The notes under the pieces were generated by a model that was given only the letters and a program-made list of their open reading frames with translations, was not told where the DNA came from and did no database searches. Shown one piece after another: positions 2,069-55,720 of a stretch of 64,000 nucleotides of DNA. The stretch comes from Anaerolineaceae bacterium (GTDB taxonomy: Bacteria; Chloroflexota; Anaerolineae; Anaerolineales; Anaerolineaceae), in NCBI GenBank assembly GCA_029265815.1, contig JAJUGU010000003.1, forward strand, positions 124,001 to 188,000, in the 5' to 3' direction. Every line of letters begins with the position of its first letter. Position 1 is the first letter of the stretch. Position numbers and translations under genes: made by a program.

Positions 2069-4540
2069 ATGGAAAAACTAGTCACCTTACAAATAGATGG
2101 CCGCAGCGTCACCGTTCCGGCAGGAACGATGATCGTGGATGCGGCGAAAAAGCTCGACATTATTATCCCCACATTCTGCTACCATCCCAAGTTGAAACCC
2201 GCCGGCATGTGCAGGGTTTGCCTGGTGGATGTTGGTAGACCTCAGATCGACCGTGCAACCAATCAACCTGTTCTTAACGAGGATGGAACACCAAAGATCG
2301 TTTTCGGCCCCAAACTTGAAACCGCATGCACCACGCCGGTATCAGAGGGAATGGTGGTATGGGGCGCTACTGAAAAAGTGATGGAAGCGCGTAAGGAAAT
2401 CCTCGAATTCCTGCTGACCTCTCATCCCCTTGACTGCCCGGTATGCGATAAAGGCGGAGAATGCCCGCTGCAAAACCTGACACTTAAATTTGGACCGACC
2501 GAGAGCCGCTTTGAATTCGACGAAAAGAAGCATCTGAGTAAACATGTTCCACTGGGTGAATTGATTTACCTTGACCGCGAACGCTGCATCCAGTGCGGGC
2601 GCTGTGTTCGCTTCCAAGATCAAATTGCAGATGACCCGGTAATCGGGTTTTCCGAGCGCGGGCGTTCGATCCAGATCGTAAGCTTCTCAGAACCCGGCTT
2701 CGACTCCATCTTTTCTGGCAACACCACTGATATTTGTCCGGTTGGAGCTCTCACCACGGCAGATTTCCGCTTTGGCGCACGAACCTGGGAAATGGAAAAC
2801 AAGGCTTCCATCTGTACCCAGTGCTCGGTGGGCTGCAACATTATTTACAACACCCGCCGCGAAGTAAAGTCTGGAAAGATCGTGATCAAACGTGTCATGC
2901 CGCGCCAGAATGAAGAAGTAAATGAAATCTGGATCTGCGACAAAGGACGCTTCACTTATCATTATGCGAACAGTCCAGAACGTCTGACAACCCCCCTGAT
3001 CAGGCGCAACGGCGAACTGGTTCGGGTTAGCTGGGAAGAAGCAATCGAATTTGCTGCGCAGAAAGTAAAGGCGGCCGGGTCAAAACTGGCGGTCATTGCC
3101 AGCGGGCGGTTAAGCAACGAAGATCTCTATACCTTGAAGAAATTTTCTACTGAGATTGAGGGTAAGGCTATCCTGCATACGACCATCAGCGGCGGCGACT
3201 GGGTTTCTCGGGTGGGAATGGCTCCTGGTTCTGATTTGAGCAAACTGGAAAAAGGTTCCACTATTCTGGTGTTTGCCTCTGATCTGCACGAAGAAGCGCC
3301 TCTCTGGTGGCTTCGAGTTAAAGGAGCGGCTGAACGCGGGGCGACCCTGATTGTTGCCAATGCGCGCAAGACCCGCCTGGATAAGTTCGCGACTCATACC
3401 TTGCGCTACCGGTATGGAGAAGAAGCAAAGGCTCTGGACGAGATTATTTCTGGTAAGTCAGAAATCTCAATGGCGGTTAAGGAAGCTGAAAATCTGGTGG
3501 TCTTCTACGGTTCCGATGGCCTCGGTCTGGCACAATCCGCTTATGTGGCCGAAAAATTGGCCGGATTGCTCACCAGCACCGGCCACACTGGTAAACCTAA
3601 CAACGGACTGATCGCGGTCTGGCAAAAAGGAAACGACCAGGGCGCGTGGGAACTGGGTTACAAGACAGACCAACATCTTGAAGATACGATCAGCGCTGCA
3701 ATGGGAGTTTATATCGCCGGGGCCGATCCCGTCAGTGAAGATCCCGGGTTAAAGATCGCGTTGCAGCGGGCGGGATTTATCATTGTTCAGGATTTGTTCC
3801 TGACCGATACAGCCCGGTTAGCAGATGTCGTCTTCCCGGCTCAAGCGGTCATGGAGCGCGAAGGAACAGCAGTAACGGGTGAGCGCCGTATGCAATACTA
3901 CGCCCCCGCAGTGTGTGAGCCAGAAGGTACCCGCCCAGATCATTCCATCACCTGTGCCATTGCCCAAGCGGCTGGTATGAGCCTGACCGTTGCCACTACC
4001 GCTGAAATTTTCGAGCAAATGACGGCTGCCCCCGGGGTATTTCACAATATCACGCTCAACCAGTTACGCGAAACATGCGAACAATGGCCGAGGATCGGTC
4101 GCAACGAGGTTTATTACGCGGGTACCGCTTTCGATAACAAAGACGGCCTGGGTGTAATCTTGCCGTTGAATCAAGATCAAGAGAAACCTCTACCGGCCGC
4201 GATCCCTGAAGCGGTTACTGTTCCTCAGGGTCAATTCCTGGCAGTGCCCGTCACCCGTCTTTACGACCGCGGAGGCACGGTGATCACCTCCGATATGGTC
4301 AAGGAGCGCATCACCCGTAACCTGATCAGCCTGAATCCGAAGGATGCAGACAAGATCAAGGCAGCAGCCGGCGATAGAATTCTGCTGCATCTGGCAGGCA
4401 GAGACATTGAAGGACTCCTTGGTCTTGATAATGGTCAGCCTGAAGGTGTGGTTTTAGTGACACGCAGTATGGGTGCGCTGCTCTCTACCCCGGCTCTTGC
4501 CGCGGTTTCTGTAATTGAACCCGCAACTCAAAAATCATAG
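2069..4540 (+). CDS. nuoG: NADH-quinone oxidoreductase subunit G (75-kDa, multi Fe-S)
   Basis: Iron-sulphur subunit of the complex I NADH module, 823 residues. ATG at 2069 follows the nuoF stop by 4 bases; a longer in-frame reading from 1949 only overlaps nuoF. Domains in order: an N-terminal 2Fe-2S ferredoxin (CYHPKLKPAGMCRVC), the His/Cys cluster block (HPLDCPVCDKGGECPLQN), a 4Fe-4S motif RCIQCGRCVRFQ, then a molybdopterin-oxidoreductase-like region opening with CTQCSVGC and a fourth Cys 33 residues later (WICDKGR). That last set resembles the N7-type cluster kept in some bacterial NuoG proteins. The C-terminal part lacks obvious pterin catalytic residues, as is normal for NuoG. Confidence 0.94.
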   Translation: MEKLVTLQIDGRSVTVPAGTMIVDAAKKLDIIIPTFCYHPKLKPAGMCRVCLVDVGRPQIDRATNQPVLNEDGTPKIVFGPKLETACTTPVSEGMVVWGATEKVMEARKEILEFLLTSHPLDCPVCDKGGECPLQNLTLKFGPTESRFEFDEKKHLSKHVPLGELIYLDRERCIQCGRCVRFQDQIADDPVIGFSERGRSIQIVSFSEPGFDSIFSGNTTDICPVGALTTADFRFGARTWEMENKASICTQCSVGCNIIYNTRREVKSGKIVIKRVMPRQNEEVNEIWICDKGRFTYHYANSPERLTTPLIRRNGELVRVSWEEAIEFAAQKVKAAGSKLAVIASGRLSNEDLYTLKKFSTEIEGKAILHTTISGGDWVSRVGMAPGSDLSKLEKGSTILVFASDLHEEAPLWWLRVKGAAERGATLIVANARKTRLDKFATHTLRYRYGEEAKALDEIISGKSEISMAVKEAENLVVFYGSDGLGLAQSAYVAEKLAGLLTSTGHTGKPNNGLIAVWQKGNDQGAWELGYKTDQHLEDTISAAMGVYIAGADPVSEDPGLKIALQRAGFIIVQDLFLTDTARLADVVFPAQAVMEREGTAVTGERRMQYYAPAVCEPEGTRPDHSITCAIAQAAGMSLTVATTAEIFEQMTAAPGVFHNITLNQLRETCEQWPRIGRNEVYYAGTAFDNKDGLGVILPLNQDQEKPLPAAIPEAVTVPQGQFLAVPVTRLYDRGGTVITSDMVKERITRNLISLNPKDADKIKAAAGDRILLHLAGRDIEGLLGLDNGQPEGVVLVTRSMGALLSTPALAAVSVIEPATQKS

Positions 4541-4552
4541 GCGAGGATAGCT

Positions 4553-5557
4553 ATGACATTTGGATTATTTCTTGAATGGTTCATCAAATCGCTCATTTTG
4601 ATCCTCGGTTTGACTATAGGATTCGCCTATGTAACGCTTTTCGAGCGTAAACTTGCCGCATGGATTCAAGTGCGCATTGGCCCGAACCGGGCTGGTCCCT
4701 GGGGTATTTTTCAACCGGTTGCAGACGCCGTGAAATTGATTTTCAAGGAAGAACTTATTCCCGAAAAAGCTGACAAATTCTTGTTTGTCATGGCGCCGGT
4801 AATTACGGTAATCCCTGCGTTAATCATCACCGGTGTGATTCCCATTGGCCCCCCCATCACGCTTTTTGGTAAAGAATTCACCATGCAGATCGCCGATATC
4901 AACGTCGGTGCGCTCTATCTGCTGACCGTTACCGCTATCTCCATCTATGGTATCGTACTCGCGGGATGGTCTTCGAACAACAAATATTCGATGATGGGTG
5001 GGTTGCGTGCAGCGGCTTCGATGATCAGCTATGAGCTTGCGCTGGGGTTGTCGTATATCGGACCGATCCTGCTCGCGAATTCCATGAGCATCAATGACAT
5101 CATCAACGCCCAAAAAGGCGTGTGGTTTGTCGTATTCCAACCCCTGGGTTTCATCATCTTCATCCTCGCTTCCACCGCCGAAATCAACCGTGGACCTTTT
5201 GATATGCCTGAGGCTGAGCATGAACTAACAGGCGGCTATAACACCGAATACTCTGGCATGAAGTTCGCCCTTTTCTACATGGCAGAATACATCAAGATGA
5301 TCACGATTTCGATGATCGGCGCATCACTCTTCCTGGGTGGATATCTGGGTCCGGGAGTGCATGAACATCCCTGGCTTGGACCGATCTACCTAACAATTAA
5401 AGTAGTGATCATTCTCTTCTGGCTGGTTTGGAGCCGTTGGACCTGGCCGCGCTTCCGCTATGACCGCTTAATGAAATTCGGCTGGAAGATCCTCTTCCCA
5501 CTGGCGCTTTTAAATGTATTCGTGACCGCGCTTGTGCTCTTGCTGATCGGAGGTTGA
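4553..5557 (+). CDS. nuoH: NADH-quinone oxidoreductase subunit H (membrane)
   Basis: ND1-type membrane subunit, 334 residues with about eight hydrophobic segments. The N-terminal quinone-site signature is clear: TLFERKLAAWIQVRIGPNR, followed by GPWGIFQPVADAVKLIFKEE. Later conserved acidic loops are present (STAEINRGPFDMPEAEHELTGG). NuoH forms the membrane side of the quinone channel between the peripheral and membrane arms. The start ATG at 4553 has a GAGG-containing leader. The gene is separated from nuoI by a single base. Confidence 0.96.
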   Translation: MTFGLFLEWFIKSLILILGLTIGFAYVTLFERKLAAWIQVRIGPNRAGPWGIFQPVADAVKLIFKEELIPEKADKFLFVMAPVITVIPALIITGVIPIGPPITLFGKEFTMQIADINVGALYLLTVTAISIYGIVLAGWSSNNKYSMMGGLRAAASMISYELALGLSYIGPILLANSMSINDIINAQKGVWFVVFQPLGFIIFILASTAEINRGPFDMPEAEHELTGGYNTEYSGMKFALFYMAEYIKMITISMIGASLFLGGYLGPGVHEHPWLGPIYLTIKVVIILFWLVWSRWTWPRFRYDRLMKFGWKILFPLALLNVFVTALVLLLIGG

Positions 5558-5558
5558 A

Positions 5559-6050
5559 ATGCTTCGCGGATTATACATTACCCTTAAGTCGCTATTTGAA
5601 AAAAAGATTACCATCCAGTATCCCGAAGTGAAAAGACCGGTGCGAGAGCGCTTCCGTGGAAGGCATGAACTGAAGCGTTATGATAACGGATTGGAAAAAT
5701 GCATTGGCTGTGCCCTGTGCGCAGCAGCCTGCCCGCCAGGCGCAATTTTTGTGGAGGCCGGGGAGAACACCGATGAAGAACGGTATTCTCCGGGTGAACG
5801 TTACGCTAAAACTTACGAGATCAATATGTTGCGCTGCATCTTTTGCGGGTTTTGCGAAGATGCCTGTCCGACTGAAGCGATCGTCCTGGAACACGATTAT
5901 GAACTGTCGTTCACTGACCGCAGATCAGCTATCTATACCAAGGATATGCTTCTTGTTAAGGTTCCTGAAGGCGGAAAGCCTACCCCACAGAAGACTGAAC
6001 CCGGGGTCTACACTCGTTCAGTGCCCGAAATGAAAGACCCCGTGGATTAA
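5559..6050 (+). CDS. nuoI: NADH-quinone oxidoreductase subunit I (two 4Fe-4S)
   Basis: TYKY-type ferredoxin subunit, 163 residues, carrying clusters N6a and N6b next to the quinone site. Two complete C-x2-C-x2-C-x3-CP motifs are visible: CIGCALCAAACPPGAI and CIFCGFCEDACPTEAI. An N-terminal amphipathic stretch probably lies on the membrane. The start ATG is one base after the nuoH stop, with GGAGG just inside the nuoH end, so translation is likely coupled. Confidence 0.96.
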   Translation: MLRGLYITLKSLFEKKITIQYPEVKRPVRERFRGRHELKRYDNGLEKCIGCALCAAACPPGAIFVEAGENTDEERYSPGERYAKTYEINMLRCIFCGFCEDACPTEAIVLEHDYELSFTDRRSAIYTKDMLLVKVPEGGKPTPQKTEPGVYTRSVPEMKDPVD

Positions 6051-8874: not shown

Positions 8875-10380
8875 ATGAATTCAGGCATGAATCCCCTTCT
8901 CTTGGTCACTTTCTTCCCCCTTGTAGGGGTATTGTTGATCCTTCTCTACAAAAAGACCTGGAAATCTGCCATCCGTTGGACGGCATTGATCATATCACTG
9001 GTCACCTTTGGTCTATCGTTGTGGATGCTTTCCATGTTCGATCCTGCAGACCCCAACATTCAAATGGAGATCAACCTTCCGTGGTTCAATCTGGGCGGAA
9101 ACCAGATTGGCTTTCATCTGGGTGTAGATGGCATCAGCATCCTGATGGTTCTGCTGACAGGATTCCTCACCCCCATTGCCCTCCTGTCCACCTGGAAGGC
9201 TGTGGAGGATCGTCTCGCGGGCTTCATGGCGTTCTTCTTGATGCTCGAAACCGGTATGATGGGCGTCTTCCTCTCACTGGATATGGCGCTTTTCTACATC
9301 TTTTGGGAATTCACCCTTATCCCGATGTATTTCCTGATCGGGCTCTGGGGCAGCAAACGCCGGGTTTACGCTGCGATCAAATTCGTTCTCTATACCATGG
9401 CCGGATCACTGCTCATGCTTGCCGGCATCCTGTGGGTGGGGTTGCAGTATGGCGGATTTGATCTGACGAAAATGGATGCCAGTCTGATTCCACAGTCAGC
9501 GCAGCTCTGGTTGTTCGCCGCCTTTGGTTTGGCTTTTGCTATCAAGGTTCCGATGTGGCCGCTTCACTCCTGGCTGCCTGATGCGCACACCGAAGCTCCC
9601 ACTGCGGGCTCTGTCATCCTGGCAGGTGTGCTTTTGAAAATGGGTGCCTATGGCTTCTTACGCTTCAACCTGCCGCTCTTCCCTGAAGCCACCCTCAAAC
9701 TGGTTCCATGGATGGCAGCGCTGTCAGTGATCGGAATCATCTACGGCGCGATGGTTGCCTTCAGGCAAAAGGATGTCAAGCGGCTGGTCGCTTACTCTTC
9801 CATCAGCCATCTTGGCTTTGTTGTTCTGGGTATCTTCGCGCTCAACCAGCAAGGGATCGAAGGCGCAATTTTACAGATGGTCAACCATGGTCTTTCGACC
9901 GGTGCCCTCTTCCTTATCGTGGGGCTGATCTATGAAAGACGCCACACCCGCGAGTTGGAAGAATTTGGCGGCTTGTGGAAGGTGATGCCGGTGTTGGGTG
10001 GGCTTTCACTGGTTGTGATGCTATCATCCCTTGGCCTGCCTGGTTTGAACGGCTTTGTGGGTGAATTTTCCATTCTCCTCGGCGCTTTCAACTCAGATTT
10101 CCTTGCTTCTCCCTGGTTTGCAGGTGTCGCGACCATTGGCGTGATTCTGGCGGCGGTGTACCTGCTGCACATGTTCCAGAAGGTCTTCCTGGGTCCGGTC
10201 ACGAAAGAGGAGAATCTGAAATTAAAGGATCTTTCCCTGCGCGAGATCCTTACCCTGGCACCCATTCTGGTGGTCATCTTCTGGATCGGTCTTTACCCCA
10301 AGCCGTTCTTCCTGTTGATGTCGCCCGCGGTTGAAAAATTGACTGCGGTCTTTCAAACCCTGGCGCTTGCAGCTCATTAA
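8875..10380 (+). CDS. nuoM: NADH-quinone oxidoreductase subunit M (antiporter-like)
   Basis: Antiporter-like proton-pumping subunit, 501 residues and about 14 membrane helices. Diagnostic segments include WEFTLIPMYFLIGLWG, FAIKVPMWPLHSWLPDAHTEAPT and KRLVAYSSISHLGFVVLG. An AAAAGGA element lies just upstream of ATG 8875; an overlapping open frame starting at 8868 is in another frame and lacks family features. It follows nuoL by 11 bases. Confidence 0.95.
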   Translation: MNSGMNPLLLVTFFPLVGVLLILLYKKTWKSAIRWTALIISLVTFGLSLWMLSMFDPADPNIQMEINLPWFNLGGNQIGFHLGVDGISILMVLLTGFLTPIALLSTWKAVEDRLAGFMAFFLMLETGMMGVFLSLDMALFYIFWEFTLIPMYFLIGLWGSKRRVYAAIKFVLYTMAGSLLMLAGILWVGLQYGGFDLTKMDASLIPQSAQLWLFAAFGLAFAIKVPMWPLHSWLPDAHTEAPTAGSVILAGVLLKMGAYGFLRFNLPLFPEATLKLVPWMAALSVIGIIYGAMVAFRQKDVKRLVAYSSISHLGFVVLGIFALNQQGIEGAILQMVNHGLSTGALFLIVGLIYERRHTRELEEFGGLWKVMPVLGGLSLVVMLSSLGLPGLNGFVGEFSILLGAFNSDFLASPWFAGVATIGVILAAVYLLHMFQKVFLGPVTKEENLKLKDLSLREILTLAPILVVIFWIGLYPKPFFLLMSPAVEKLTAVFQTLALAAH

Positions 10381-10394
10381 CGGAAGGTGAAAAC

Positions 10395-11837
10395 ATGACA
10401 ATAATTGATCTTTTCTCCATTCTTCCGGTACTCGTTCTTGTGGTGTGGGCGCTATTCCTGCTGTTGGCAGATTTGTGGGCTTCGCGTAAGTTGCCGGGGT
10501 TGACTCCCATCCTGGCTGTGGTTGGACTGGTATGTTCACTGGTGGTATCGATTGTTCAGGTGGGCAAACCTCAATCTTCCTTTGGTGGAATGATCCATGT
10601 GGATGGGTTCAGCGTCTTTCTGAACATTCTGTTTGCCATCACCGGCATTGCCGCGGTCGCTCTGGCTTATGAATCGTTCAAGAACCTCAAGATTCAGCGT
10701 GGTGAGTATTATGTGCTGCTGCTGTTCAGCCTGAGCGGGATGATGTTGATGGGCGCGGCTGGTGATTTGATCGTCATCTTCCTGGCTCTTGAATTGCTTT
10801 CTATCCCGCTGTATATCATGGCTGGTATGGACTTCAACCGGTTGGAGTCGAAGGAAGCATCACTGAAGTATCTCTTGCTGGGAACTTTTGCTTCGGCTAT
10901 CGTACTGTTTGGCACTGCTTTCATCTACGGCGCCGCGCAAACCACCAACCTGTATGAAATTGCTCTGGCTGTCAGCCTGGCTGAGATCAATTGGACCCTG
11001 TTCATCATCGGCGCTGCGCTGCTGGTCGTAGGTTTTGGGTTTAAAGTAGCCGCAGTGCCATTCCACACATGGACTCCTGATGTATACCACGGCGCGCCCT
11101 CTTCAGTTACCGCATTCATGGCTGTGGGTGCAAAGGCAGCCGGTTTTGCGGCTCTTATCCGTGTATTTTCGCTGGATTTCACCATTCTTTCTGAGAATCT
11201 CACCGCTGTCTTCTGGGCGCTGGCTGTTTTGACCATGATCGTAGGAAATTTCACTGCTCTGGCTCAGAAGAATCTCAAGCGCATGCTGGCCTACTCCAGT
11301 ATTGCTCACGCGGGTTATATTCTGATGGCTTTCGTAGCATTTGGCAACGAGGCCGTGCGCGTAGATTCCATTGCTTCAGCGTTGTTCTACCTGGCGGCCT
11401 ACGCAGCCACCTCCATCGGTGCCTGGGCAGTTTTAATTGCGGTCGAAAGAGAAGACGCTTCAAGGAATGAGATCGAACACCTGGCCGGGTTAGGTAAGGC
11501 CGCTCCTCTGCTGGCAGCGGCTATGACCGTTTTTATGCTCTCATTTACCGGCATTCCTGTAACCCTTGGGTTCTGGGGAAAATTCTATCTCTTCCGCACT
11601 GCGATCCAGGGCGGAAACATCATCCTTGCGGTTATTGGTTTGCTGACTTCACTTGTGTCTGCATACTACTACCTGAGAGTGGTCGTGAAGATGTATTTCC
11701 AGGAAGGGGATGTCAAAGTCAATCAGAAGGGCTGGTCGCTTGTGGTTGCGGTTGTTGCTGCTTTGATCGTGCTTGGATTGGCTTTCATACCTGAATTGCT
11801 CTATAAATTCGCTGCAAGCAGTTTAATAATCGGTTAA
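10395..11837 (+). CDS. nuoN: NADH-quinone oxidoreductase subunit N (antiporter-like)
   Basis: Third antiporter-like subunit, 480 residues. Key blocks are LELLSIPLYIMAGMD, the middle GFKVAAVPFHTWTPDVYHGAP with its conserved lysine and histidine, and KRMLAYSSIAHAGYILM. GGAAGGTG precedes the start. It is the last gene of the nuo operon: 20 bases after its stop comes a strong hairpin. The order E-F-G-H-I-J-K-L-M-N matches the common bacterial 14-gene arrangement, so A, B and C are expected upstream of the window. Confidence 0.95.
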   Translation: MTIIDLFSILPVLVLVVWALFLLLADLWASRKLPGLTPILAVVGLVCSLVVSIVQVGKPQSSFGGMIHVDGFSVFLNILFAITGIAAVALAYESFKNLKIQRGEYYVLLLFSLSGMMLMGAAGDLIVIFLALELLSIPLYIMAGMDFNRLESKEASLKYLLLGTFASAIVLFGTAFIYGAAQTTNLYEIALAVSLAEINWTLFIIGAALLVVGFGFKVAAVPFHTWTPDVYHGAPSSVTAFMAVGAKAAGFAALIRVFSLDFTILSENLTAVFWALAVLTMIVGNFTALAQKNLKRMLAYSSIAHAGYILMAFVAFGNEAVRVDSIASALFYLAAYAATSIGAWAVLIAVEREDASRNEIEHLAGLGKAAPLLAAAMTVFMLSFTGIPVTLGFWGKFYLFRTAIQGGNIILAVIGLLTSLVSAYYYLRVVVKMYFQEGDVKVNQKGWSLVVAVVAALIVLGLAFIPELLYKFAASSLIIG

Positions 11838-51713: not shown

Positions 51714-54554
51714 ATGCCTGCACCTGAGATCATCCATCAACTTGTTGCTAAATTCGAAGAAAATCGCGAAGCCTACCGCTCCGGTAAGTACAACGAAGCC
51801 CGCCTGCGCCAGGAATTTCTCGACAAATTTTTTATCGCCCTCGGCTGGGACGTGTACAACGAGAAGGGCGTTGCGCCTGAATACTGCGATGTGATTGTCG
51901 AGGATTCGCTTGATATTGAAGGCACTTCAAAAGCGCCAGATTACGCCTTTAAGATCGGCAGAGAACGCAAATTTTATGTTGAAGCAAAGAAGCCAAAGGT
52001 GGATATTCAGTACGATATCCACCCCGCCTACCAGCTCAGGCGCTACGCATGGAACGCTCATTTACCCCTGAGCATTCTGACCGATTTTGAAGAGTTCGCT
52101 GTTTACAACTGCAAGAGCAAGCCCAGCCCCTCGGATAGCGCCGCCACCGCGCGCGACAGGTTCTATCGTTACACAGATTACATCGAAAAGTGGGACGAGA
52201 TCGCCGCTGTTTTCTCGCGCGACGCTGTCTGGAAAGGTTCGTTTGACCGCTTTGCAGAGACATCCAAAGGCAAGAAGGGTACCACCGAGGTTGACGATGA
52301 ATTCCTGAAGGAAATGAGCGAGTGGCGCATGAACCTGGCGCGCAACATCGCCCTGCGCAATCCCCAGGTGACTGATGAAGCCCAACTCAATTATGCAGTG
52401 CAGATGACCATTGACCGCATCCTCTTCCTGCGCATTTGTGAAGACCGCGGCATTGAGCCTGAAGAGCAGCTGAAAACCATTGCCTGTAAGCCCGCCATCT
52501 ATCCCCGTTTGCTTGAGCTTTTCAGGCGCGCTGACGTGAAGTACAACTCGGGGCTGTTCCACTTCAACCACGAGAAGGGCAGCGACATTTCCGCTGACAC
52601 TTTCACCCCTACCCTCAAGATCGATGATAAGGTCCTTAAAGAAATCATCGCCAGCATCTACTACCCCTGTCCCTACATATTCAAAGAGATCCCGGTGGAA
52701 ATTTTGGGGCAGGTCTATGAGCAGTTTTTGGGCAAGGTCATCCGCCTTACCCCCTCGCACCAGGCGAAGGTCGAAGAAAAACCCGAGGTGCGCAAGGCGG
52801 GCGGGGTGTATTACACCCCCAAATACATCGTGGATTACATCGTGCAGAACACGGTTGGTGAACTGCTGAAGGACAAAACCCCTGATCAGGCGGCGGAGCT
52901 GAAGATCGTTGACCCGGCCTGCGGCAGCGGTTCCTTCTTGCTGGGGGCTTACCAGCACCTGCTCGATTGGCACCTCAAGTGGTACACGCAGAACGACCCC
53001 GAAAAGTGGATCAAAGGTAAAACCCCCGCCCTGGTGCAGGTGACCGGTGGTTACAGGTTGACAACCCAGAAGAAAAAGGAAATTTTACTGAACAACATCC
53101 ACGGGGTGGATATTGATGCTCAGGCGGTCGAGGTGACCAAGCTGAGCCTGCTCTTAAAGGTGCTGGAGGAGGAAAGCGGGCAGTTGAGCCTGGGGTTCGA
53201 GCGCACCCTGCCCGACCTGGGCAGGAACATCCAGTGCGGCAACTCGCTGATCGGGTGGGATTACTTCGAAGGGCGGTTGGCGGTGGATGAGCAGGAGCGC
53301 CGGCGTGTCAACCCGTTTGATTGGCAGGTAGCTTTCCCGCAGGTGTTCGCGAGAGGAGCGAGTGGCGGGTTTGATGCAGTGATTGGCAATCCGCCTTACG
53401 GTGCAATGGTAAGCGATAATGAAAATAACTATTACCAAAAAAAATTTATTTCAAAAGACAAAGATACATACGCTTTGTTCATTGAAAAAGCAATTGGTTC
53501 TTGCAAATCCGGGGGTTTGATTTCAATGATCGTTCCAACAGGGTGGTATTCTGGAGCGAGCTACAGTAAATTACGAAAACACTTTATGGTTACAACTAAT
53601 CCAAAAGTATTTGTTAATCTTCCTTATGATATTTTCCATGCTTGGGTTGATACAACAATATTTATCACAAGTAAACGTGCAAATATTATTGTTTGGCCCA
53701 GTTTTGGTAAGAGCACAACTCTACTTATTACTTTTCCAAAAAAGTTTAAAATTCAGTCATTGAACGATTTTAATAACATTTCAAGAAATATCGACGTTTC
53801 GTTATGGTTTAAAAACAATGCAAACGAGTTTATTACATATGCAGATAGCGATTCACTAGGGATTTTAAGGAAAATAGAAAAAACAACTGTCCCTTTGTCA
53901 GCGATTGCAGATGTTCAAAGAGGTGTGACACCCTTCCACCTTGACGATGAACCGATATACAAAACTAGTCAATTTGCTTTTGATGGATCTGTAAGAAGAT
54001 ATATCTGCGAAAAGGCAAATATTAAATATATAAAGTATGATGAATCGCTTGCAGAATATAAACCAAAAAGATATTTTGAAGGCAATAGGATTTTATTACG
54101 AGAATTAATAAGTCGGCAATTTCGCTTACAAGCTGTAATTGTTGAGGAAAATTTTATAACGAACAAATCAATGCAAAGTATCCTTAATTTACAAGAATCA
54201 CCAAACCTTGCTTATATTCTAGGAATTCTTAATAGCAAATTTTTGTCTTGGTATTTCCTAAAAAAATCCAATATCGGTCAAAGGGATGACTTTCCAAAAA
54301 TTGTTTTAAAAGAGACGAGAGGATTACCTATCCGCCCTATCGACTTCAATAGCCCTGGTGACGTTAAACGCCACGACCTCATGGTTAGTCTCGTCCAACG
54401 CATGCTTGACCTGCACAAACGCGTCCCCGCCACCCCGCAGGAAGCCGAGCGAATCAAACGCGAGATCGAGTCCACCGACCGCCAGATCGATCAACTGGTG
54501 TATGAGCTGTACGGTCTAACTGATGAAGAGATCGCCATTGTTGAAGGTGCCTGA
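51714..54554 (+). CDS. Type IIG-like restriction enzyme/N6-adenine methyltransferase
   Basis: 946-residue single-chain restriction-modification protein. The N-terminal nuclease region has the PD-(D/E)xK pattern APDYAFKIGRERKFYVEAKKP (residues about 80-100). The methyltransferase has motif I VDPACGSGSFLLGAYQHL and motif IV IGNPPYG of N6-adenine enzymes. A TaqI-like C-terminal target-recognition domain follows and ends in a helical tail. From about 53405 to 54335 the DNA becomes far more AT-rich than the rest, covering the end of the catalytic domain and the recognition domain. AAAGGGGA precedes the start. It likely cleaves and methylates a specific site. Confidence 0.88.
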   Translation: MPAPEIIHQLVAKFEENREAYRSGKYNEARLRQEFLDKFFIALGWDVYNEKGVAPEYCDVIVEDSLDIEGTSKAPDYAFKIGRERKFYVEAKKPKVDIQYDIHPAYQLRRYAWNAHLPLSILTDFEEFAVYNCKSKPSPSDSAATARDRFYRYTDYIEKWDEIAAVFSRDAVWKGSFDRFAETSKGKKGTTEVDDEFLKEMSEWRMNLARNIALRNPQVTDEAQLNYAVQMTIDRILFLRICEDRGIEPEEQLKTIACKPAIYPRLLELFRRADVKYNSGLFHFNHEKGSDISADTFTPTLKIDDKVLKEIIASIYYPCPYIFKEIPVEILGQVYEQFLGKVIRLTPSHQAKVEEKPEVRKAGGVYYTPKYIVDYIVQNTVGELLKDKTPDQAAELKIVDPACGSGSFLLGAYQHLLDWHLKWYTQNDPEKWIKGKTPALVQVTGGYRLTTQKKKEILLNNIHGVDIDAQAVEVTKLSLLLKVLEEESGQLSLGFERTLPDLGRNIQCGNSLIGWDYFEGRLAVDEQERRRVNPFDWQVAFPQVFARGASGGFDAVIGNPPYGAMVSDNENNYYQKKFISKDKDTYALFIEKAIGSCKSGGLISMIVPTGWYSGASYSKLRKHFMVTTNPKVFVNLPYDIFHAWVDTTIFITSKRANIIVWPSFGKSTTLLITFPKKFKIQSLNDFNNISRNIDVSLWFKNNANEFITYADSDSLGILRKIEKTTVPLSAIADVQRGVTPFHLDDEPIYKTSQFAFDGSVRRYICEKANIKYIKYDESLAEYKPKRYFEGNRILLRELISRQFRLQAVIVEENFITNKSMQSILNLQESPNLAYILGILNSKFLSWYFLKKSNIGQRDDFPKIVLKETRGLPIRPIDFNSPGDVKRHDLMVSLVQRMLDLHKRVPATPQEAERIKREIESTDRQIDQLVYELYGLTDEEIAIVEGA

Positions 54555-54555
54555 T

Positions 54556-54586
54556 TGTCATTGCGAGCGTTTTATGCGAAGCAATC
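54556..54586. repeat. REP-like palindromic element
   Basis: ATTGC and GCAAT arms enclose GAGCG...CGAA in a short imperfect hairpin just after the restriction enzyme stop and before the RAYT transposase gene. Its form resembles short intergenic repeats with an 'attgcgag...gaagcaat' pattern seen in many bacterial genomes. I find no second clear copy in the window. Confidence 0.45.
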
Positions 54587-54751
54587 CCTAATTCAGGCTT
54601 CAAGTCCATCTGTTGCTGATCGCACACATCACGAATCGCATTGTCATCAGAACTGGAATCACCTCCACAGAACAGCAGATTGACACCCTGATGATGAACT
54701 TTAGAGCCTCACCCTTTACCACCCCTTTGTAAACGGGTAACCACGAGATCC

Positions 54752-55348
54752 ATGATAACCAACAACCATTCTCATCATCGCCGTTCGATCAGGCTCAAAG
54801 GATTTGATTACTCCCAACCAGGCGGATATTTCATCACCATTGTTACCTGTAACCGTGAGCACCTTTTTGGTGTAATCAACCATTGCGGAGTGATCTTAAA
54901 TCCATTGGGCAGGATCGTGTGGGATTGTTGGTCTGCGATACCTGATCATTTTATGCATGTAGATTTGGGAGAATTTGTGGTCATGCCCAACCATATCCAT
55001 GGAATCATCAACATATTTGATGATCATCGTAGGGGCATGATACATCGTGCCCCTGCGTTGGAAAAACATGCCCCTGCGTTGGAAAAACATGCCCCGGCGA
55101 TGGAGCGGTTTGGGCAACCTGTGGCAGGATCAATACCAACCATCATCCGCGCCTTCAAGGCTGCAGTTACAAGAAAAGCGTCTCAAGAATTGAATATTTC
55201 CAGAGTTTGGCAACGGAATTACTTTGAACACATCATCTCCTCTGATCGCGAATATGAACGGATCGAGGCTTACATCGCCAATAACCCCTCCAATTGGTTG
55301 GGTGACGATGAAAATCAATCATTCACCGTAGATATAAGAGGTTTGTGA
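54752..55348 (+). CDS. REP-associated tyrosine transposase (RAYT, Y1_Tnp)
   Basis: 198-residue HUH-type single-strand transposase relative of IS200/IS605. The His-hydrophobic-His motif is MPNHIHGII and the catalytic Tyr region is RVWQRNYFEHIISSDREYERIEAYI with the RAYT-type C terminus NNPSNWLGD. The N-terminal YFITIVTCNREHLFG is typical. RAYTs process palindromic REP elements and are usually single-copy domesticated genes. Between the HUH and Tyr parts is a repeat-bearing insert (APALEKH twice). There is no strong ribosome-binding site. No flanking IS ends were seen. Confidence 0.9.
   Translation: MITNNHSHHRRSIRLKGFDYSQPGGYFITIVTCNREHLFGVINHCGVILNPLGRIVWDCWSAIPDHFMHVDLGEFVVMPNHIHGIINIFDDHRRGMIHRAPALEKHAPALEKHAPAMERFGQPVAGSIPTIIRAFKAAVTRKASQELNISRVWQRNYFEHIISSDREYERIEAYIANNPSNWLGDDENQSFTVDIRGL
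55028..55057. repeat. palindrome inside the RAYT gene
   Basis: Two 14-base arms (CGTAGGGGCATGAT and ATCGTGCCCCTGCG) pair with two mismatches around a 2-base loop. The element lies in frame within the coding sequence, in a variable hydrophilic stretch between the two catalytic parts of the transposase. Confidence 0.6.
55049..55111 (+). repeat. 21-base tandem repeats in the RAYT gene
   Basis: Two exact 21-base copies (55049-55069 and 55070-55090) and a third degenerate copy encode APALEKH, APALEKH and APAMERF. The repeats begin in the right arm of the palindrome and keep the reading frame. Confidence 0.8.
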
Positions 55349-55511: not shown

Positions 55512-55601
55512 CGGGGAGGGAGGGATTCGAACCCTCGGTCGAGTTTAAAGCCCGACAATCACTTAGCAGGCGATCCCGTTCAGCCACTCCGGCACCTCCC
55601 C
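55512..55601 (-). tRNA. tRNA-Ser (anticodon GCT)
   Basis: 90 bases. The acceptor stem GGGGAGG pairs with CCTCCCC and the discriminator base is G. The anticodon loop reads CTGCTAA, giving anticodon GCT. The long variable arm marks a class II tRNA, and the T-loop GGTTCGAATCC is intact. CCA is not encoded. It lies 34 bases after the second tRNA-Ser. Confidence 0.95.
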
Positions 55602-55635: not shown

Positions 55636-55720
55636 CGGAAGGGGAGGGATTCGAACCCACGTTGGCTTTCACCAAACCTGTTTTCAAGACAGGCGCCTTA
55701 AACCGCTCGGCCACCCTTCC
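55636..55720 (-). tRNA. tRNA-Ser (anticodon TGA)
   Basis: 85 bases. The acceptor stem GGAAGGG pairs with CCCTTCC and the discriminator base is G. The anticodon loop reads CTTGAAA, giving anticodon TGA. A long variable arm and GGTTCGAATCC T-loop are present. CCA is not encoded. It is the first of two adjacent serine tRNA genes. Confidence 0.95.

Follow-up and report, generated by a model that had tools for sequence, protein, structure and literature searches.

Restriction-modification enzymes such as BpuSI and DrdV unite a nuclease, an N6-adenine methyltransferase and a recognition domain in one chain. CamA and M.BseCI are not known to contain a nuclease domain. Integron gene cassettes are a further system with which the locus described below can be compared. 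For Helicobacter pylori, the relevant passages of PMC3077401 describe the replacement of the target recognition domains (TRDs) of specificity genes via recombination in the conserved flanks.

General Features of the Type IIG Gene

The gene under study, a single-chain Type IIG restriction-modification gene, is located at 51714-54554 (+) of the window, by which the whole analysed stretch of 64,000 nucleotides is meant. The frame of 946 aa is uninterrupted, as the earlier note on this DNA had reported. The Pfam matches in the encoded protein include Eco57I (126 bits), N6_Mtase, TaqI_C and HSDR_N, the last scoring 30.9 bits against a cut-off of 25.1. The PADLOC model REase_MTase_IIG gave 614 bits, and its best stretch (residues 7-624) ends where the variable module has already begun.

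The nuclease motif residues D76, E90 and K92 (51939-51989, +), which we take to form a PD-(D/E)xK pattern, are invariant in 36 aligned members of the family. The same holds for D400, A402, C403, G404, S405 and G406 of DPACGSG (residues 400-406; 52911-52931, +), the SAM-binding motif, and for NPP of the catalytic motif NPPY (residues 559-562; 53388-53399, +), the left border of the exchangeable module. The N6-adenine methyltransferase motifs I (DPACGSG) and IV (NPPY) are both present in the chain. The AT-rich exchangeable module occupies 53403-54311 (+), as delimited by change points, fourfold-site GC (GC4) and loss of identity, and consists of the end of the methyltransferase core and the target recognition domain. 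The TaqI_C-like recognition domain was placed at residues 760-873 (53991-54332, +; Pfam TaqI_C 54.8 bits), in agreement with the earlier statement that the AT-rich segment spans the methyltransferase end past motif IV and the recognition domain. The right anchor is a GC-rich conserved helical tail, residues 881-946 (54354-54551, +), with helices predicted at 881-902, 908-932 and 937-945.

The AlphaFold2 model of the 946-aa protein (pLDDT 83.9, pTM 0.79) has fold matches to CamA, BrxX, BpuSI, M.BseCI and DrdV, among others, and sequence matches to solved proteins cover parts of the chain only. Judging from sequence matches and the model, the product is an ordinary Type IIG enzyme in its predicted anatomy, with nuclease, methyltransferase and recognition domain in one chain. 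By its motifs, this chain would both methylate and cut DNA.

A short inverted repeat at 54555-54588, which by eye we take to resemble a REP element, follows just past the stop codon. Directly downstream, at 54752-55348 (+), lies a gene similar to those of REP-associated tyrosine transposases (Y1_Tnp and NF047646, both below cut-off), and tRNA genes on the opposite strand are situated just past it, at 55512-55601 (-) and 55636-55720 (-). REP-type transposases were also detected near orphan copies of the gene's tail in L165, L095 and L093, of 19 loci searched. A link of these transposases with Type IIG genes was considered and set aside, as they stand beside the intact gene at 2 of 63 loci only, the window and L105. 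PF01420, the family of Type I specificity genes, had no match in the genome that holds the window.

Base Composition of the Gene

GC content along the gene changes from 0.543 to 0.313 and returns to 0.551, with the best change points of a two-change-point fit at 53415 and 54311. The log-likelihood gain on a 30-nt grid was 63.5, versus a maximum of 15.3 among 300 codon shuffles. Such a plot had been proposed in the earlier note, and the borders named there were closely reproduced: the switch from GC-rich to AT-rich just after NPPY was found approximately 10 nt from 53405, and the return ahead of the helical tail approximately 25 nt before 54335.

The segment 53403-54335 has a GC content of 0.322, which corresponds to a z of -4.1 relative to 930-bp windows of the own genome (mean 0.484, sd 0.039). 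The scan comprised 12,339 such windows, placed every 30 bases along a 389,484-base sample of this genome, and nowhere else in the sample was a window at or below 0.342 found. At fourfold sites the difference is larger, with a GC4 of 0.751 in the core and 0.185 in the module. A GC4 as low as that of the module was met in 0 of 552 other 270-codon ORF windows of the genome. The mean of these ORF windows is 0.537, so the core lies above the host average and the module below it.

Base Composition across the Family

In 34/34, 46/46 and 62/62 genes of three overlapping, non-independent samples, the window gene being part of each, the module has a lower GC content than the core; at fourfold sites this applies to 62/62 genes. 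The window gene is 12th of 46 by the size of the GC step (residual z -0.62). For the fourfold counts, one of the 63 intact genes (L133) was dropped since the NPPY motif was missing in the range, leaving 62. On average, GC4 reaches 0.855 in the core and 0.838 in the tail, compared with 0.726 for neighbouring ORFs and 0.467 for the module. When the 62 genes are pooled, GC4 falls from 0.82 to 0.58 at NPPY, and a second step is located approximately 70-90 codons from the C-terminus. Ordinary within-gene composition drift was rejected as a cause, since a GC4 step of -0.39 (the family mean) or more was found in 0/121 ORFs of the own genome and in only 2/228 flanking ones, all of them 350 aa or longer.

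Module GC4 correlates with that of the core (r 0.52) and of the neighbours (r 0.47), which indicates that modules adapt to the host at a lower level, and anchors at a higher one. Modules that are at least 50% identical may differ widely in GC4, e.g., 0.32 versus 0.75 in different hosts, and such differences track those of the core (r 0.52) and of the neighbours (r 0.46). Since the GC4 of related modules follows the host, the step is not merely imported composition.

The earlier note had explained the AT-rich segment as a recognition module swapped in from a low-GC donor, and had named beforehand, as contrary to this explanation, the same composition change throughout the homologues. This change was found in 62/62 genes. 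The idea of module exchange holds at family level (in 21 of 23 close pairs, see below). The inference of a low-GC donor is not supported, because every family member examined has the same step, and composition here does not indicate an import. Rather than marking a single recent import, the AT-rich step is a long-standing property of this family.

Exchange of the Recognition Module

The closest relatives of the window gene are L015 and L016, from the same genus, and L017, from the same family. Over residues 1-560 they are 79-81% identical to it. The identity is 36-41% at residues 561-617 in all three; residues 618-833 of the window gene are unmatched in L016 and L017 and 30% identical in L015. 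The tail is 49% identical in L016 and L017, and L015 is truncated by the edge of its contig.

Among the 62 members, 23 pairs, which are cross-species rather than strains, have cores at least 80% identical. When matches covering at least 70% were counted, the modules were below 30% identity or unmatched in 21 of these pairs and shared (at least 50% identity) in 2. In the 21 pairs pooled, the pair of the window gene and L176 among them, the fraction of identical nucleotides falls from 0.86 over the last 15 nt through NPPY to 0.30 over the following 15 nt. The identity border thus coincides with the composition border at NPPY, and the alignment of homologues proposed in the earlier note does reveal a sharp drop there.

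The module is closer than the core in 18 of the 1891 pairs of the 62 members. The gene L179 is a mosaic: most of its core and its tail are similar to L178, and residues ~750-960 are similar to L004, with an onset from ~660. In AU tests, the core of L179 rejects the grouping L004+L179 (p-AU 0.0014) and its module rejects L178+L179 (p-AU 0.0004), the groups having been picked after the identities were known. The switch in this trio lies some 90-180 residues past NPPY, not at NPPY. On these sequence comparisons, the recognition module is a unit exchanged between cores in this Type IIG family, with exchange seen across genera. As for the window gene, long matches to its module in other genomes are only 22-33% identical, so the gain of its own cassette by exchange is inferred from the family rather than observed directly.

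A search with the module alone gave matches in 12 of 147 family genomes including the own one, the best other match being 33% over 245 residues. Among 400 phylum genomes there were 19 with a match, again including the own one, and the best other match (32%, query residues 18-300) belongs to a 1613-aa protein. Neither a donor nor a near-identical module was found elsewhere in the 147 family and 400 phylum genomes, and one viral scan with the module gave no match. The 1613-aa protein shows 32.5% identity to the module end and 26.6% to the core, which may be a weak hint, not proof, of exchange between non-orthologous enzymes.

Copies of the 3′ End in Related Loci

In a part of the related loci, the 3′ end of the gene is repeated. 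Extra copies of the own C-terminal 62 residues were found downstream on the same strand in 17/52 intact genes for which 1 kb or more of downstream sequence was available, a set partly chosen for orphan tail copies. Upstream there were none (0/56), none was on the opposite strand, and pieces of the N-terminal part or the middle of the core had no copies. In 40 regions taken regardless of tail copies (complete genes among the class-search matches, mostly in the listed order), a downstream copy was present in 12/36 and an upstream copy in 0/35, with at least 1 kb required on each side. The remaining loci, partly chosen for orphan tails, had a downstream copy in 5/16. Copies of their own 3′ end were absent from 532 control ORFs (0/209 and 0/323), which were taken from both strands, include some overlapping stretches and may in part not be real.

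Of 34 tail matches listed at the DNA level, most are 75-96% identical and one is 64% identical. In the median, the repeat runs from position -128 to position -2, counted from the stop codon's end. In the 147 family genomes, 47 tail matches were detected in 27 genomes, 24 of them within open frames no longer than 116 aa. No downstream tail copy accompanies the window gene, whose tail has a single match in its own genome.

Tail-repeat arrays are located downstream of or around the homologous gene in L091, L090, L092, L093, L003, L179, L182, L188, L190 and L192. The repeat corresponds to the terminal ~125 bp of the enzyme gene, and the copies are mostly split by unrelated accessory genes, often of the same direction. 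The products encoded between tail copies include RhuM in L179, DUF6414 in L192, PIN in L199, a protein with a DUF4062 match just under cut-off in L190 and DUF3800 in L091 (in L003 by likeness only). L091 also carries two genes that score as HEC-01A and HEC-01B, which together make up a candidate anti-phage system. For several other genes in such positions there was no family match. The order in L091, on one strand, is a start fragment with tail, HEC-01A/HEC-01B, tail, DUF3800, tail, a 259-aa gene and tail. We read the 3′ end as a recombination anchor where accessory genes dock.

Remnants of the gene are also present. At L091:5692-5847, L096:5305-5529 and L095:6151-6846, the enzyme's opening 26-40 residues lead on to the tail, and the body is lost; the two pieces are ~200 bp apart in L095 and almost adjoining in L091 and L096. 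The locus L098 (G024:C8:374000-393000) contains the N-terminal half (residues 1-465) twice, at 4220-5623 and 10279-11682. These half-copies are ~6 kb apart and both end early, and a 927-aa ORF lies between them.

A limited literature search found no published account of such 3′-end copies or arrays, and turned up few papers bearing on the base composition of recognition domains.

Origin of the AT-Rich Module

It is very probable that cassettes are swapped in frame between conserved core and tail anchors and that AT-richness is a standing condition of the accessory pool. The exchangeable cassette would begin right behind NPPY and end shortly ahead of the tail. Cassettes would be swapped in frame by homologous recombination, a route that we infer, within the conserved core on one side and the conserved tail on the other, and the swap presumably alters specificity. 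The cassettes would constitute an accessory pool with fast turnover that is not homogenised with the core, and the shared core and tail anchors would remain GC-rich. Such a standing pool is the likeliest cause of the low module GC. Of 16 ORFs that precede the tail copies or lie among them, 14 have a fourfold GC closer to the module value than to the core value; one of the 16 overlaps with a tail copy, and some could be spurious.

A single recent swap of the window gene's recognition module from a low-GC donor would agree with the module GC of 0.322, far outside the genome range, and with a module that finds no match, or a weak one, in the closest relatives, whose cores are ~80% identical. This seems unlikely, however, as the same step is present in every member of the samples of 34, 46 and 62, among which the window gene is no outlier, and as the nearest long module matches, at 22-33% identity, point to no recent donor. 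The dip also extends to non-orthologous enzymes of ~1530-1630 aa (n=4), being strong in L130 and L131 and slight in L129 and L132. A dip that is family-wide and recurs, partly weakly, in these Eco57I-type proteins could be intrinsic, that is, due to selection at the amino-acid or DNA level which renders recognition domains AT-rich. Such a cause is decidedly unlikely. The step persists at fourfold synonymous sites within every amino-acid box, which rules out amino-acid make-up as the sole cause, and the GC4 of modules with neighbour data spans 0.17-0.81, so a low value is not needed for the fold. An assembly chimera might be imagined in a genome of 26 contigs, but it is scarcely conceivable with an unbroken frame and the same structure in all 62 measured genes. 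Low GC has been reported for whole Type I systems (36-39% in a 41% genome) in passages of PMC5198162 that are silent on domains within genes.

GC-biased gene conversion acting on the shared anchors competes seriously with the pool explanation and is alone in predicting anchors above the host level. Anchors that recombine often would become GC-rich, and the unmatched module would drift to an AT-biased mutational state. Relative to neighbouring ORFs, GC4 is higher in the core in 48/53 genes and in the tail in 45/53, and lower in the module in 51/53 (9 of the 62 genes had too few neighbouring ORFs); these counts are not independent because the members are related, which weakens the argument. Core GC4 is near-equal at the most variable (0.85) and the most conserved residues (0.88-0.89), and the step is seen in all 8 fourfold boxes. 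These values disfavour codon-accuracy selection behind the GC-rich core. Besides, the module GC of 0.322 is below the 0.428 of non-ORF DNA in the window. On the other hand, a low module is equally predicted by continuous import from AT-rich sources, although high anchors are not. PMC4450053 claims that recombination and GC are linked across bacteria, and the GC bias of bacterial gene conversion is disputed in the literature (PMC4450053, PMC8153448, PMC6867656). Gene conversion as the source of the step is possible, if doubtful.

With a similar degree of doubt, these genes could be two-anchor exchange loci, in which the core up to NPPY and the final ~125 bp act as converted GC-rich anchors that enclose an AT-decaying cassette, and the 3′ anchor serves as a docking repeat for partly anti-phage tail-gene-tail arrays downstream. 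If the anchors are kept GC-rich above the host and the cassette decays, the composition within one gene would read out GC-biased gene conversion.

An AT-rich dip inside a restriction gene is no sign of recent foreign import unless relatives lack the dip, and all relatives examined here have it. The composition profile is a possible record of recombination, and the general interest of the locus lies there and in the tail arrays of its relatives. Adjoining segments with and without homologous partners, available in many genomes, could test the GC bias of bacterial gene conversion. The tail copies with accessory genes between them suggest one route by which defence gene clusters may grow.

Comparison with Known Systems

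CamA (7lni_A) is the best structural match of the window protein (E 3.6e-26), and M.BseCI matches with an E of 9.8e-20; the solved chains of both comprise 525-576 residues, versus 946 in the window protein. The fold matches to BpuSI (PDB 3s1s) and DrdV (7lo5) have E values of 8.1e-20 and 2.3e-18, with an identity of only 12-13% in the fold alignments. The BREX protein PglX/BrxX has a related methyltransferase core, as indicated by the NCBIfam BREX-1 PglX match of 117 bits and the fold match 9ewz, but is ~1200 aa long. Membership in BREX PglX was rejected, since 117 bits is under the cut-off of 500 bits and the other listed BREX PglX models were below their cut-offs too.

The exchangeable recognition module of this Type IIG family is real and is of a known kind. 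As in the TRD substitution described for Helicobacter pylori in the passages of PMC3077401, a recognition domain is swapped within conserved flanks. The H. pylori domains belong to separate S subunits with two TRDs and move between positions within the species, whereas in the Type IIG family one module is fused to the enzyme and is exchanged across genera.

The loci of some relatives are similar to integron gene cassettes in that accessory genes lie between direct repeats of the same orientation. They differ from integron cassettes in that the enzyme gene's own coding 3′ end forms the repeat, and the window gene stands without such a repeat.
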